DNA from: Pseudochelatococcus contaminans
Lineage (GTDB): Bacteria; Pseudomonadota; Alphaproteobacteria; Rhizobiales; Beijerinckiaceae
Length of the DNA: 64,000 bases
NCBI RefSeq assembly: GCF_014195635.1
Contig: NZ_JACICC010000003.1
Coordinates: forward strand, 372,001 to 436,000
Direction: 5' to 3'
Part shown: positions 21,849 through 27,155 of the stretch, in pieces
Layout: every line of letters begins with the position of its first letter
Numbering within the stretch: the first letter of the stretch is position 1
Notes under the pieces: model-generated
What the model was told of the DNA's origin: nothing
Databases searched by the model: none
What the model saw: only the letters and a program-made list of their open reading frames with translations
Translations under genes and position numbers: made by a program

Positions 21849-22967
21849 TTGCTTTACGTCGATATTCCCTCGCTTGCCGAGATCAAGGCCCTCAGCGAAC
21901 TGCGCGCAGATGCCGTGGTGTCGATTTATCTGCCGACGACGCCGGTGACGCAGGAAAACGAGGCCAGCCGGATCGCGCTGGGTAACCTCATCAAGGCCGC
22001 TATCGGCCAGCTTGAGGAAGCCGGGTTCGACAAGCGTCGCCTGGGAGAACTGCGCGAGCAGCTTGAGCACCTGCGCGCCGATGACGAATTCTGGGTGCAT
22101 CAGGCAAACAGCCTCGCCATCATCGCCACGCCGGACCAGTTGCGCACATACCGCCTCGCCAACCGGCTCACCGAGATTCTCGAGGTTTCCAACCGCGTCC
22201 ACCTGAAGCCGCTGCTGCGCGCAGTAGCATTCCCGCACAGCGCTTACATTCTGTCGTTGTCGGAAAACAAGGTGGGGCTGGTGGAAATGTCCGCCGACTT
22301 GCCGCCACACCCGCTGTCCGTGTCGAAGTTCCCGGCCAGTGCGGCATCCGTTGCCGGCAAAAAATCTGTCAACGACCGTGCCACGGACGAGCGCAGCCAC
22401 AACGGCAGCAGCCAGCGTCAGTTTCTGACGCAGTACGCCCGCAGAATCGACACTGCTCTTCGTGAGTTGGTGTCTGGCGGTGACGTGCCGGTTATTCTGG
22501 CCGCGGCAGAGCCGCTGGCATCCATCTATCGTAGCGTCAACTCCTATCCGAACCTGCTGCCGCAGATCATTGCCGGCAACACGGAGCATCTGACGCCGCT
22601 TGAGCTGGCCGATGCCGCCCGGCCTGTTCTGGACGCTCATTACGCAGCACAGATCGACGAGCAGAAGGCGCTTTTCTCCGCTCGGACAGGCGATCGCCGC
22701 ACAACCACGGACGTCTCGGACGCAGCCCGCGCAGCGACCTTCGGACAGGTAGCGACGCTGTTCGTGGATATCGATGAAGTGCTGCACGGCACCGTTGACG
22801 ATGGAACCGGCGAGGTGCATTTCGGCGAAGAAGGTCCGGATACCTATGGCATCGTCGACGAGATCGCCGTGCGCGTTCTCAACAGCGGCGGGAAGGTGCT
22901 GGCGGTGCGCCGGGTGGACATTCCTGGCGAAGGTTCGCTGGCTGCGATTCTGCGTTTCCCTCTCTGA
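21849..22967 (+). CDS. baeRF-family (bacterial release-factor-1-like) protein
   Basis: The 372-residue protein looks like the bacterial archaeo-eukaryotic release factor (baeRF) families: an N-terminal LRADAVVSIYLPTTPVTQENEASRIALGNLIKAA, a central LPPHPLSVSKFP, and a C-terminal L7Ae-like part with IDEVLHGTVDDGTG and VDEIAVRVLNSGGKVLAVRR. Some baeRF members are thought to act on stalled ribosomes or in stress responses. The start is TTG 21849 with AGAGGA upstream. A strong hairpin follows the stop. Assignment rests on overall pattern, so moderate confidence. Confidence 0.72.
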   Translation: MLYVDIPSLAEIKALSELRADAVVSIYLPTTPVTQENEASRIALGNLIKAAIGQLEEAGFDKRRLGELREQLEHLRADDEFWVHQANSLAIIATPDQLRTYRLANRLTEILEVSNRVHLKPLLRAVAFPHSAYILSLSENKVGLVEMSADLPPHPLSVSKFPASAASVAGKKSVNDRATDERSHNGSSQRQFLTQYARRIDTALRELVSGGDVPVILAAAEPLASIYRSVNSYPNLLPQIIAGNTEHLTPLELADAARPVLDAHYAAQIDEQKALFSARTGDRRTTTDVSDAARAATFGQVATLFVDIDEVLHGTVDDGTGEVHFGEEGPDTYGIVDEIAVRVLNSGGKVLAVRRVDIPGEGSLAAILRFPL

Positions 22968-23096: not shown

Positions 23097-23113
23097 TTTA
23101 GAACTATTCGCAA
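23097..23113 (+). promoter_or_regulatory. Iron-control element (Irr box)-like motif
   Basis: TTTAGAACTATTCGCAA matches the rhizobial iron-control element (two 7-mers TTTAGAA and TTCTAAA spaced by 3): first half perfect, second half 5 of 7. It lies about 50 bp upstream of the ATG at 23162 and 18 bp after TATACT (23074-23079), a likely -10 box. Binding by Irr is an inference. Confidence 0.5.
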
Positions 23114-23161
23114 CTCTCATAAGTTTCGCGGAAGTATCGATTGGACAGAGAAGGCATGACG

Positions 23162-23455
23162 ATGTCAGGCAATGGTGGTTACGGAAATCAATACTCGGGC
23201 CAGTATGGCGACCCCCGGCAGAACCGGCGCATCGATGCGCTTGATGTTCTCGAGGGAGTGCTGAAGGACGGGTTCAGTTTGTCCAATTTTACGCGTATCG
23301 CCCGCGCCAGCGGGTCGAGGTTCTGGCTGGGTGCTGCGGTTGGCGCTGGCCTTGTCGTCGTCGCGACGCGCCCGGATGTGCGTGCCGCTGTCTCCGGTGT
23401 TCTGCACGCCGGAGCAGCCGCAGCGGGCAGACAATCCACAAAACACGACATCTGA
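23162..23455 (+). CDS. Small single-pass membrane protein, first gene of a ferrosome-like operon
   Basis: The 97-residue protein has a Gly/Tyr/Gln-rich polar N-terminus (MSGNGGYGNQYSGQYGD). This is followed by an amphipathic stretch (DALDVLEGVLKDGFSLSNFTRIARASGS) and one membrane segment (FWLGAAVGAGLVVVATRPDVRAAVSG). The segment pattern resembles that in the next gene's product, so both may be membrane anchors of one complex. The ATG at 23162 has AGAGAAGG 7 nt upstream; the ATG at 23156 is too close to it. No named family recognised. The gene lies behind an Irr-box-like motif. Confidence 0.7.
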   Translation: MSGNGGYGNQYSGQYGDPRQNRRIDALDVLEGVLKDGFSLSNFTRIARASGSRFWLGAAVGAGLVVVATRPDVRAAVSGVLHAGAAAAGRQSTKHDI

Positions 23456-23490
23456 AACTCTGAGGGATTTCGACAGCATACGCTTACGTC

Positions 23491-23515
23491 ATGCAAAGCT
23501 TTATACGCTTTGCGT
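23491..23515 (+). terminator. Hairpin after the first anchor gene
   Basis: GCAAAGC/GCTTTGC (23493-23499 and 23507-23513), extendable by A-T and G-T pairs, loop TTTATAC. It is followed by G-rich sequence rather than T, so it is a weak terminator or attenuator. Confidence 0.45.
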
Positions 23516-23674
23516 GAAAGCGTCTTGTTGCGACATCCGGTCATTGACGGTGCCGGTACGAAGCAAGATTGGTTGAATAAAGCGGTTCATGGCGTGCAGG
23601 CTTGTCGATCTGTCATGCATGATCCCGGTCGTTGCGCCTTGCGCTCCCGGCCGGGAATCGTGTTCGTCCGGCGT

Positions 23675-23715
23675 TAAAGCAGTTTGCATTCAAGTCGATC
23701 CATCGAGCCAAACGC
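23675..23715 (+). repeat. Interspersed palindromic-type repeat, copy 1
   Basis: This 41-bp segment matches 26480-26520 at 32 of 41 positions; the core TTCAAGTCGAT is identical. It lies upstream of the His-rich gene. Confidence 0.65.
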
Positions 23716-23803
23716 AAGTTGCCGTAAAATATAGAGTTTATAGCGCTCGTTCTCATTCCGTCAGAACATCCGGCGCTCTGACTGTATACTCAGGAGCAAA
23801 AGC

Positions 23804-24418
23804 ATGTCGAACGATCATCGAAAAGAGCAGGAAATTCACTATCACTACCACTTTTATGGTGTGAATCCCCAGCAGATATTCGGTCCTGGCGCACAGGCCT
23901 CCGGAAATCCGGCTCAGCCCGCCGATCCTGCGCAGGCTGGCGTCCAGGGTAATCCGGGTGGCTTTGCCCCTCAGGGACCGGCTGGCGGCAACCCCTTCGG
24001 AGCGTCGGGAGCGCCCTTCGGCGTTCCTCCAGGCGCAGCTCCGCAACAGCCGTTTCAGGCCGGTGCTCCCCAGCCGAATGCGCATCAGCACCCCACGGCG
24101 GACTCCTTCATCAAGGGTCTTCTCGTCGGCGGCGGCGCGGCTTATCTGCTGACGAACGAAACGGCCCAGCGCACGATCCTGCGCACGGCCGTACAGCTCT
24201 GGAGCGTGGTGCAGGGCGGTTTCGAGGAACTGAAGGAGCGTCTTCACGACGCCGAGGCGGAAGTGGCTGCGGCCGATGAATCCGCCGATATCGCCGACGA
24301 CGTGCAGGCGGCGGCTGAAGAGGCGCAGGAAACTCTGTCCGAAGGTGCCGACGCAGCCAGAGCGGCGGCCGATGGCGCTCGCGTGGATACGCCTCGTTTT
24401 CCTCGCACAGTGAGCTGA
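23804..24418 (+). CDS. His-rich, Pro/Gly-rich membrane-anchored protein of the ferrosome-like operon
   Basis: The 204-residue protein starts with a metal-binding-looking segment EIHYHYHFYGVNPQQ. Next come about 70 residues of low-complexity Pro/Gly/Gln/Ala. One hydrophobic segment follows (FIKGLLVGGGAAYLLTNETAQRTIL), then a long acidic Ala-rich helix (EELKERLHDAEAEVAAADESADIADD) that should form a coiled coil. The stop codon is 6 bp before the ATPase ATG, so the two genes are almost certainly co-translated. No named family recognised. A metal-organising or scaffold role next to a P1B-type ATPase is inferred. Confidence 0.75.
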   Translation: MSNDHRKEQEIHYHYHFYGVNPQQIFGPGAQASGNPAQPADPAQAGVQGNPGGFAPQGPAGGNPFGASGAPFGVPPGAAPQQPFQAGAPQPNAHQHPTADSFIKGLLVGGGAAYLLTNETAQRTILRTAVQLWSVVQGGFEELKERLHDAEAEVAAADESADIADDVQAAAEEAQETLSEGADAARAAADGARVDTPRFPRTVS

Positions 24419-24424
24419 TTGGCC

Positions 24425-26482
24425 ATGCCGCGTATCGTCCATGAATTGCCGAACCGGCTCAGGCTGAGGTTCGGTCCCGCCGATGCGCGGCTTGAGAGAG
24501 CTGCGGGTGCGGTGCGTGATCTTGCCGGGGTTGCGGGCGTGCGCCTCAATCCCGGCGCGCGGACGCTGGTCGTGCAATATGATGGCGACCCTGCGACACG
24601 GGCGCGCGTCCTCGCGGACGCCGCCAACCCGCCCGAAAGAGCCTATCCGCTGATCGATGTGGATGGCACCGAGGGTGCTGAACTGGCGCTCGCCGGCGCC
24701 GCGGTTATCGCCTCGCTCGTGCTGCCGCGGCAGGCCGCCGGGGTCGTGACTGTCGCCAACATTGCCGGCACAGTCCTCAGCGGTGTGCATGCGGCGCTGA
24801 CGTCGGGCCTCAAGGTCGAGGTGCTCGATGCGTTGGCAGTCGGGCTGCCGACATTGCGCGGACGTTTCGCCACGGCAAATTTTGCCCGCTTCCTCGTGGA
24901 GCTGGCAAACTACATTGAATCCACAACGGTCGAGCGCTCCGACGCTCTGCTGCGGAGCCTGTTGCATCGCAAGCCTGACGACGTTTGGGTGGAAGGGCCG
25001 GGCGGGCAGCTCATCCGCACGCCGTTCAACGATCTCAAGGGCGGAGAGCACATTGCCGTCGGTCTCGGCGAGACCGTGCCGGTTGATGGCGTGGTTGTGT
25101 CTGGCGATGCGTATGTCGACCAGTCCGCCGTCACCGGGGAAAGCCTGCCAATTCCGCGCGCGCCGGGCGGGGAAGTGCTCGCCGGCAGCATCGTCACGGA
25201 CGGGCGGCTGGTGGTGCGGGCTGATCGCATCGGCGAGGCCACGGCAACCGGGCGGATCACGCGCTATATTCAGGATGCTCTGGAGCAGCCCGCCGAAATT
25301 CAGTCGATGTCCGACGCTCTTGCCGACAAGCGCGTGGGTATCACGCTGGCATCCGCGGCGGGCGTCTTCGCTTTGACGCGTGATTGGCGGCGTATCGAGT
25401 CGGTTTTCATGGTGGATTATTCCTGCACCGTGAAGCTGGGCACGCCCATCGTGCTGAAAACAGCCATGTATAATGCCGCGAAGAATGGTTGCCTTGTGAA
25501 GAGCGGCCAGACTATCGAGAATCTGGCCAATATCGATACTGTCATTTTCGATAAAACCGGCACGTTGACTCACAATACCTTGCAGGTCACGGATGTCGTG
25601 CCGCTGGCCGACGGCCTCACCGAAGAGCAGGCGGTTGCGATCGTTGCGTCGCTTGGTGAGCACACGACGCATCCCATCGCCCGCGCCGTGGTGCAACTGG
25701 CGAGAACGCAGAAGCTCGCTCATGTCGACCACGAGGAAGTCAACTTCATCGTCGGGCACGGCGTCGAAGGTGTGATCGACGGCGATACCATTCGCTTCGG
25801 AAGCCGCCATTATCTGGAAGATGACGAGCACGTCTCGTTCGCCCGCCAGCGGAAACTGGTGGAAACCTTCCAGGCAGAGGGCAAATCGCTTCTTTACGTG
25901 GCGCGCAACAACCGGCCGCTGGCGGTGTTCGCTCTGCGCGACCGGCTGCGGAACGAAGCCTATGATACCGTGCAGCGCTTGCGGGACATCGGCATCGAGC
26001 GCTGCGTGATGATTACCGGCGATCACCGCGCCAAGGCGCTTGCCTTCGGCGAGGCGCTCGGGTTGGATGAGGTGCATTACGAGCAGCAGCCGGAAGACAA
26101 GGCCGTAATCGTTGCGCGGCTGAAAGCTGAAGGGCGGCGGATCGCCTACGTTGGTGACGGCGTTAACGATGGCCCGGCGCTGATGACGGCTGATGTCGGT
26201 ATCGCCATGCCGCGTGCCGCCGATATCGCCCGCGCGACGGCTGACATCATTCTGCTTGATGACAAGCTGGAGTCGCTCGTCACTGTGATCGACATTTCGC
26301 AGCGCGCGATGAAGCTCGTCGACTCCAACTTCAAGGTGGCCGTAGGCGCGAATTCCGCCATTCTCGCGGGTGCGGTGACCGGGGTGCTGCCCTCCATTGC
26401 CACGGCGGCGCTGCATAACGGCACGACTATCGGCGTTCTGGCGCGCTCGCTGCTGGCAAACCGCAGCCATCCGTCACACTAA
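24425..26482 (+). CDS. P1B-type (P1B-6-like) metal-transporting ATPase, FezB-like
   Basis: The 685-residue ATPase has all core motifs: SAVTGES (A domain), FDKTGTLT with phosphorylated Asp376, HP in EHTTHPIA, MITGDH and GDGVNDGPAL. The N-terminus (residues 3-65) is an HMA-like domain without CxxC; instead it reads HELPNRLRLR. The metal-site helix has DYSCTVKLGTP in place of the CPC motif of copper pumps. These two features match P1B-6-type ATPases such as FezB of ferrosome loci. It is short for a P1B pump. Start is ATG 24425; TTG 24419 is an alternative directly after the previous stop. Substrate, probably iron, is inferred. Confidence 0.85.
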   Translation: MPRIVHELPNRLRLRFGPADARLERAAGAVRDLAGVAGVRLNPGARTLVVQYDGDPATRARVLADAANPPERAYPLIDVDGTEGAELALAGAAVIASLVLPRQAAGVVTVANIAGTVLSGVHAALTSGLKVEVLDALAVGLPTLRGRFATANFARFLVELANYIESTTVERSDALLRSLLHRKPDDVWVEGPGGQLIRTPFNDLKGGEHIAVGLGETVPVDGVVVSGDAYVDQSAVTGESLPIPRAPGGEVLAGSIVTDGRLVVRADRIGEATATGRITRYIQDALEQPAEIQSMSDALADKRVGITLASAAGVFALTRDWRRIESVFMVDYSCTVKLGTPIVLKTAMYNAAKNGCLVKSGQTIENLANIDTVIFDKTGTLTHNTLQVTDVVPLADGLTEEQAVAIVASLGEHTTHPIARAVVQLARTQKLAHVDHEEVNFIVGHGVEGVIDGDTIRFGSRHYLEDDEHVSFARQRKLVETFQAEGKSLLYVARNNRPLAVFALRDRLRNEAYDTVQRLRDIGIERCVMITGDHRAKALAFGEALGLDEVHYEQQPEDKAVIVARLKAEGRRIAYVGDGVNDGPALMTADVGIAMPRAADIARATADIILLDDKLESLVTVIDISQRAMKLVDSNFKVAVGANSAILAGAVTGVLPSIATAALHNGTTIGVLARSLLANRSHPSH

Positions 26483-26822: not shown

Positions 26823-27155
26823 ATGAAGAAAGAAAAGATCTACGACTTCGCAATCGATAATCCGCTGACCGACGACAGGCGCAAAATCATCGAGGCGCAT
26901 ATCAAGAAAGCGGCGCAAAGCTCCGGCATGCCGCTGCGGTTCGGTTGGGCACAGGAAGATGCGCGCGATCTGCGCATTGCTGTCGGGCCGGTGGAAATCG
27001 AAGTGCGCTTCCATGCCGAAAAGGCAGAGCTGTTCGCCGCCGCTCCGATATGGGCACGGATGCTGTTCACGGATGCCAAGAAAGTCGAGCTCAAGACAAT
27101 GATTGAGAAAGTCATCGTCGCTTCCGGTCTGCGCGGCCCGGTCGAAACGGCTTGA
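26823..27155 (+). CDS. Small hypothetical cytoplasmic protein
   Basis: The 110-residue protein (MKKEKIYDFAIDNPLTDDRRKIIEAHIKKAAQ...) has a charged helix, then strands (LRIAVGPVEIEVRFHAEKAELFAAAP) and a C-terminal helix (DAKKVELKTMIEKVIVASGL). The order resembles polyhydroxyalkanoate-system small proteins (PF09650-like), but the resemblance is only in size and layout. It follows the ferrosome-like operon at 340 bp and converges on dld. Function unknown. Confidence 0.65.
   Translation: MKKEKIYDFAIDNPLTDDRRKIIEAHIKKAAQSSGMPLRFGWAQEDARDLRIAVGPVEIEVRFHAEKAELFAAAPIWARMLFTDAKKVELKTMIEKVIVASGLRGPVETA

Follow-up and report, generated by a model that had tools for sequence, protein, structure and literature searches.

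A three-gene locus of Pseudochelatococcus contaminans that probably encodes a reduced fez-type (ferrosome-type) iron system

The stretch of the Pseudochelatococcus contaminans genome analysed here (contig NZ_JACICC010000003.1, positions 372,001 to 436,000; 64,000 nucleotides in full, hereafter the window) carries two genes for small proteins, which we call P1 and P2, followed by the gene for a P1B-type ATPase. An initial annotation, made from the letters of the DNA, had proposed that these genes form a ferrosome-like (fez-type) operon. Ferrosomes are a recently described bacterial iron store, according to the consulted parts of two papers (PMC10979944, PMC12574912); the names P1B-6, FezA, FezB and FezC are used here as in the literature. 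The genome is 98.34% complete and consists of 46 contigs. Our analysis indicates that the three genes probably represent a reduced fez-type set centred on an ATPase of the FezB clade. The features that carry this argument, with positions counted in the window, are as follows.

23156-23455, + strand: P1, 99 amino acids (aa), with a Gly/Tyr-rich N-terminus, a conserved core (DALDVLEGVLKDGFSLSNFTRIARASGSRFW) and, after it, a single short hydrophobic helix that contains GxxxG
23804-24418, + strand: P2, 204 aa, with a disordered tail (residues ~1-95) that is first His/Tyr-rich and then Gly/Pro/Ala/Gln-rich, followed by two helices, the first at 97-117 and the second, a long one, at 119-195
23837-23860, + strand: codons of HYHYHFYG (P2 residues 12-19), identical in 6/6 P1-bearing loci
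24083-24094, + strand: codons of HQHP (P2 residues 94-97), just 5' of the first helix; HxHP in 6/6 P1-bearing loci
24419-26482, + strand: FezB-clade P1B-type ATPase, 687 aa counted from TTG
24419-24634, + strand: N-terminal HMA-like domain of the ATPase, HELPNRLRLR replacing CxxC (motif, iterated profile, AlphaFold2 model)
25421-25426, + strand: Ser-Cys of the metal-site helix (VDYSCT), replacing CPC (motif, alignment)
25550-25564, + strand: DKTGT phosphorylation site of the ATPase (translation of the open reading frame, alignment)

The ATPase exceeds the cut-offs of Pfam E1-E2_ATPase and of the NCBIfam heavy-metal P-type ATPase model, and scores lowest of the 15 PF00122 matches in the genome. 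It has no CxxC ahead of the P-domain and carries HELPNRLRLR at its N-terminus. Its metal-site helix reads VDYSCTVKLGTP at the position where copper and zinc pumps have CPC, a pattern present in the eight pumps of the same genome that were compared. Residues H8, R13, R15 and C336 are invariant across 14 aligned sequences, and S335 is nearly so. The initial annotation had described just such a P1B-type ATPase, in which HELPNRLRLR takes the place of CxxC and SC that of CPC, and the reading frame, family models and motifs agree with it. The stop codon of P2 abuts the ATPase start, for which an ATG at 24425 is likelier than the TTG at 24419.

An HMA-like N-terminus had also been claimed. No Pfam HMA match to this region was found, but the AlphaFold2 model of the ATPase (14 aligned sequences, mean predicted local distance difference test score (pLDDT) 81.2, predicted TM-score (pTM) 0.63) gives the N-terminal domain a strand-strand-helix-strand-strand-helix order, and an iterated profile built from the small HMA-like proteins of relatives detects the ATPase, so the claim held. 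The modelled membrane helices fit the P1B layout. Foldseek searches with the ATPase returned copper and zinc P1B ATPases as top matches, and none of the structures listed (60 of 112 in one list, 50 in the Foldseek list) was named as an iron-specific relative.

In phylogenetic trees, the window ATPase and the ATPase of a six-gene Rhodopseudomonas operon (L086, taken as Rhodopseudomonas palustris PS3, genome G962) share a 42-row clade, which is supported by a Shimodaira-Hasegawa-like approximate likelihood ratio (SH-aLRT) of 100. Eight CPC pumps of the same genome, from its 14 other P-type ATPases, lie outside this FezB clade, which also takes in the ATPases of L084-L087. With long or broken rows removed (L047, L094, L043, L083, L095, L044 and L020), the clade comprises 36 rows at an SH-aLRT of 99. 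Both trees are quick IQ-TREE runs with SH-aLRT as sole branch measure, and for both the program warned of long branches meeting. The fez-type assignment of the initial annotation is thereby supported for the ATPase. Counts out of 42 below refer to 42 FezB-clade loci of 49, seven marginal ones (411-480 bits) being excluded; the 42 are not independent, with several per genus. Matches to the iterated profiles were tallied across each fetched stretch in full, and these stretches differ in length; one HMA-like match in L020, belonging to the broken ATPase there, was discarded.

Over 12 loci, the window ATPase shares 79% sequence identity with that of P. lubricantis, 72% with two Xanthobacter genomes, 68% with Paracoccus versutus, 61-63% with Methylocystis-type genomes and 45% with a gammaproteobacterial metagenome-assembled genome. 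It is 41% identical to the L086 ATPase over 678 residues, versus 28-32% to the five CPC pumps of its own genome compared. At transmembrane helix 6 (TM6) the 42 clade members have YSC or YAC, as opposed to CPC in the eight own pumps, and the window ATPase combines this feature with the Arg-rich HxxPxRLRLR motif and the lack of CxxC. The P1B-6 class is given Fe(II) as substrate in a review table, the part of that source consulted (PMC7558416). The identity of a copper or zinc pump was considered and rejected on the clade placement together with the replacement of CxxC and CPC.

Next to the FezB clade stands a group of six ATPases (L046, L062, L088, L089, L090 and L091) with DYGTG, not YSC, at TM6. 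Genes matching the HMA-like and P2 profiles lie just upstream in five of the six loci; the upstream side of L091 is cut off. This group perhaps represents a second, unnamed metal system.

P2, too, links the locus to the Rhodopseudomonas operon. Profile-profile comparison of P2 with gene 5 of that operon gave a probability of 97.9 (E 3.4e-13, 62 columns). Judged by these profiles, the R. palustris fez operon encodes a homologue of P2, which is therefore not a new family. The initial annotation had suspected two new accessory families, a suggestion that fails for P2; P1 is the one that lacks a named family, matching nothing in Pfam below E 0.1 and no NCBIfam model. It had also noted that one small protein begins with a His/Tyr-rich segment, and P2 indeed has IHYHYHFYG at residues 11-19. 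The HYHYHFYG part is unchanged in the six P1-bearing loci, beginning at residue 10-12, and in all of them HxHP immediately precedes the first helix. The stretch that joins the two His motifs (46-106 residues, 70-79% Gly/Pro/Ala/Gln) varies in length and sequence. In the model of P2 (mean pLDDT 67.7, pTM 0.30), confidence is low up to about residue 95, ahead of the two helices. With its two invariant His clusters joined by a flexible linker, P2 may have a role in metal capture or partner binding.

Clear P1 matches (E 2e-40 or better) occur at six distinct loci, always upstream of P2-FezB: the window, P. lubricantis, two Xanthobacter genomes and another from the same genus, and Paracoccus. At other loci the matches are weak (E 3e-6 to 4e-3), and what they have in common is chiefly the helix motif. 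The P1 profile found 2 of 60 genomes, the window's own and P. lubricantis, and had no match in a third Pseudochelatococcus genome (G002). Paralogy of P1 and P2 is unsupported: iterated searches over the 49 loci merged the two, but their profile-profile probability is only 1.8. Both had been described as membrane-anchored and as lying directly before the ATPase. Both reading frames are present, but anchoring is weakly indicated by hydropathy (best 19-residue Kyte-Doolittle means of 1.36 for P1 and 1.07 for P2); P2 does abut the ATPase gene, but P1 ends 348 bp short of P2.

P2 is present at 33 of the 42 FezB-clade loci. By gene calls it lies immediately upstream of the ATPase in 29 of them; a search of open frames adds L052, L061 and L082, and in L095 it is one gene further away. 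It was not found at eight loci (seven of Methylocystis type, and L059), and L044 is cut off at a contig end. In the reverse direction, the P2 profile matched 14 genomes in one sample of 397 of the order, and all 14 carry the ATPase (hypergeometric P ~7e-25, not corrected for kinship). The initial annotation had named phylogeny and linkage as its tests, and neither refuted it. The ATPase itself was matched in 16 of these genomes, the two without P2 being G486 and the marginal G498. The P2 profile was made from FezB-linked members, some of them from the 397 genomes, so that those matches arise partly by construction; the lack of matches elsewhere does not. On plasmids, tblastn with P2 gave no match, and with the ATPase at 1e-100 it gave 12 records, all below 60% identity. 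Four of the 12 were examined, including a Vibrio plasmid record that bears no annotation.

Several relatives of the locus lie near iron genes. Within the fetched stretches, profiles detected FeoA at 10, FeoB at 8 and Fur-family genes at 4 of the 42 loci, and the iron-gene members of L080 and L086 were confirmed by Pfam. In P. lubricantis, a run of genes beginning with Ftr1 and P19 (Pfam) ends ~600 bp ahead of P1. The labels ABC and thioredoxin for genes of P. lubricantis, and the label FeoC, are our assumptions. The plasmid loci of Cereibacter and Arcobacter have annotated TonB-dependent receptors in their vicinity, and that of Azospirillum has an iron ABC transporter nearby.

Taken together, these results suggest that P. 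contaminans probably has a reduced set of the fez (ferrosome) type, in which a FezB iron pump, P2 and P1 would make an iron-storing vesicle or membrane patch. At the level of sequence comparison, the fez-type reading of the gene set is well supported by the clade membership of the ATPase, the homology of P2, the linkage between P2 and the ATPase and the iron genes near relatives. The ATPase is likely a ferrous-iron pump, a substrate that we infer, and formation of an organelle is plausible. FezB would most likely pump ferrous iron across the membrane into a lumen. P2 may be anchored beside FezB by one helix, its disordered His/Tyr-rich tail catching iron or keeping FezB molecules together, while its long helix might shape or coat the membrane. 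P1 could serve as a second small anchor of similar build. The three proteins would then store iron, either in a vesicle loaded with it or at an inner-membrane patch that does the loading.

A more specific and rather doubtful proposal concerns the branch with P1, P2 and FezB, in which two anchors with low-complexity tails would take over from partners present elsewhere, the small HMA-like carrier and the Ala/Gly-rich organelle protein. HYHYHFYG and HxHP of P2 might form a tethered iron-handing arm, and the Gly/Tyr/Gln/Pro-rich tails of P1 and P2 might hold FezB in a membrane condensate, giving a three-gene iron-loading device. This building principle was not encountered in the passages of the ferrosome literature consulted.

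The surroundings of the three genes include a repeated intergenic element, of which two copies were found by repeat search.

23675-23705, + strand: intergenic repeat copy between P1 and P2
26480-26510, + strand: second intergenic repeat copy, overlapping the ATPase stop codon

The element is 31 bases long, with copies thus on both sides of P2-FezB; when up to 2 mismatches are allowed, the genome contains it 13 times, against none for the backward control. Given the length of the P1-P2 gap and the repeat within it, a single three-gene transcript is not certain. Directly upstream of P1 lies a baeRF-family gene (21849-22967; ribosome hibernation factor AOC03_06830 model, below the NCBIfam cut-off). 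Downstream of the ATPase follows a 110-aa protein without Pfam family (26823-27155), which by gene calls does not adjoin the P. lubricantis ATPase.

Several observations weigh against a reduced ferrosome-type set. Only P1, P2 and FezB were found at the Pseudochelatococcus loci. The window locus yielded no small HMA-like protein, versus 27 of the 42 loci and 4 of the 6 in the window's sub-clade, and no Ala/Gly-rich protein, which was found at 25 of 42 loci and at 0 of 6 in the sub-clade. A profile for the latter had no match in two Pseudochelatococcus genomes, nor was PF19991 (HMA_2) found in the window's own genome, with no positive control among the genomes searched in either case. The 107-aa protein encoded by gene 3 of the R. 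palustris operon was not found at the window locus either, and by Pfam neither flanking gene resembles FezC, a DUF4405-like cytochrome; no genome-wide search for DUF4405 was made. No iron gene was recognised near the window set, a P19 gene lying on another contig. A shared regulator site is unsupported: the one Irr-like half site, at 23097 and identified with a presumed motif, was not seen again ahead of P1 in P. lubricantis. YSC is not exclusive to the clade, as it also occurs in L047, outside it. Finally, seven Methylocystis-type loci (L013-L018 and L020) have FezB without P1 or P2, and the ATPase alone therefore does not imply an organelle. At these Methylocystis-type loci, an ABM-domain gene lies upstream on the opposite strand (Pfam checked in L013 only), the downstream gene, as read from its translation, may encode a TonB receptor, and in L020 the ATPase frame is broken.

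The unfound partners and the Methylocystis-type loci would also fit a plain inner-membrane pump that exports ferrous iron to the periplasm with two accessory anchors and no organelle, the parts not found in the Pseudochelatococcus searches being the vesicle-making ones. We regard this as possible, though not probable, since P2 accompanies the ATPase in all 14 sampled genomes that hold P2, and few parts may suffice: FezA and FezB are required in Clostridioides difficile, according to the part of a review consulted (PMC12574912). That the protein pumps another metal (Mn, Co, Ni, Zn or Cu) and is merely FezB-like is improbable. A substrate is not readable from sequence with certainty, and the structures listed included no iron-specific relative, but iron genes lie near several relatives, though copper and zinc genes there were not systematically sought, and the YSC/YAC signature of the 42 clade members sets them apart from the eight CPC pumps. 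Very improbable is a decaying, no longer working remnant of a larger fez operon. Missing common partners, the distance between P1 and P2 and the repeats flanking P2-FezB would suit such a remnant; however, the reading frame of the ATPase is unbroken and retains DKTGT, the identity to the P. lubricantis ATPase is high and the P2 motifs are unchanged. A reduced fez-type set thus remains our preferred explanation.

If so, Pseudochelatococcus is added to the FezB/ferrosome family. The literature searched contained no overlap between Pseudochelatococcus and ferrosomes or FezB, an earlier mention in Grant 2022 or Pi 2023 being possible. A natural three-gene set, matched in Xanthobacter and Paracoccus and with a longer relative in Rhodopseudomonas, would offer a small testable minimum for ferrosome parts, with the two short His motifs of P2 as residues of interest.

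Compared with known systems, the window ATPase shares its overall fold and catalytic motifs with the copper and zinc P1B ATPases CopA and ZntA, but differs from them in the replaced CxxC and CPC and in forming a clade separate from the eight own CPC pumps. The window set resembles the fez loci of Desulfovibrio magneticus and C. difficile in pairing a FezB transporter with another membrane protein, as far as the consulted parts of the sources describe them (PMC10979944, PMC12574912); unlike in the D. magneticus type with FezC, the genes flanking the set are not DUF4405 by Pfam.

The R. palustris fez cluster comprises six genes, RPA2333-2338, in the part of the source consulted (PMC12016538). 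L086 matches it in gene number: its six genes run in one direction, with a Fur-family gene diverging from them, and encode in order proteins of 142 aa, 110 aa (exceeding the HMA_2 cut-off), 107 aa, 113 aa (Ala/Gly-rich) and 112 aa, and then the ATPase. The HMA-like profile does not match the 142-aa protein but does match the counterpart in L085, which is longer. The order of the six genes is the same in Azospirillum brasilense p3. In L080 (G973, of the same genus as L086) the order is Fur-family, FeoA, FeoB, short gene, HMA-like, Ala/Gly-rich, P2, FezB and HMA-like. The window set resembles the R. palustris operon in its FezB-clade ATPase, in the P2 homologue in the same slot and in HxxPxRLRLR with YSC. 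It differs in that HMA-like genes, the 107-aa and Ala/Gly-rich 113-aa proteins and an adjoining Fur-family gene were not found at the window locus, and in the tail of P2, which is His/Tyr/Gly-rich rather than Lys-rich. Reaction-centre genes are present in 5/5 genomes examined in the genus of G962 and in 0/2 of Pseudochelatococcus.

Similar in make-up are the loci of Paracoccus versutus (L012) and of a genome of the genus Xanthobacter (L092). Unlike the window and P. lubricantis, where these genes were not found in that place, both carry FeoA, FeoB and a small HMA-like gene ahead of the set; P1, P2 and the ATPase all match, and their order is kept.

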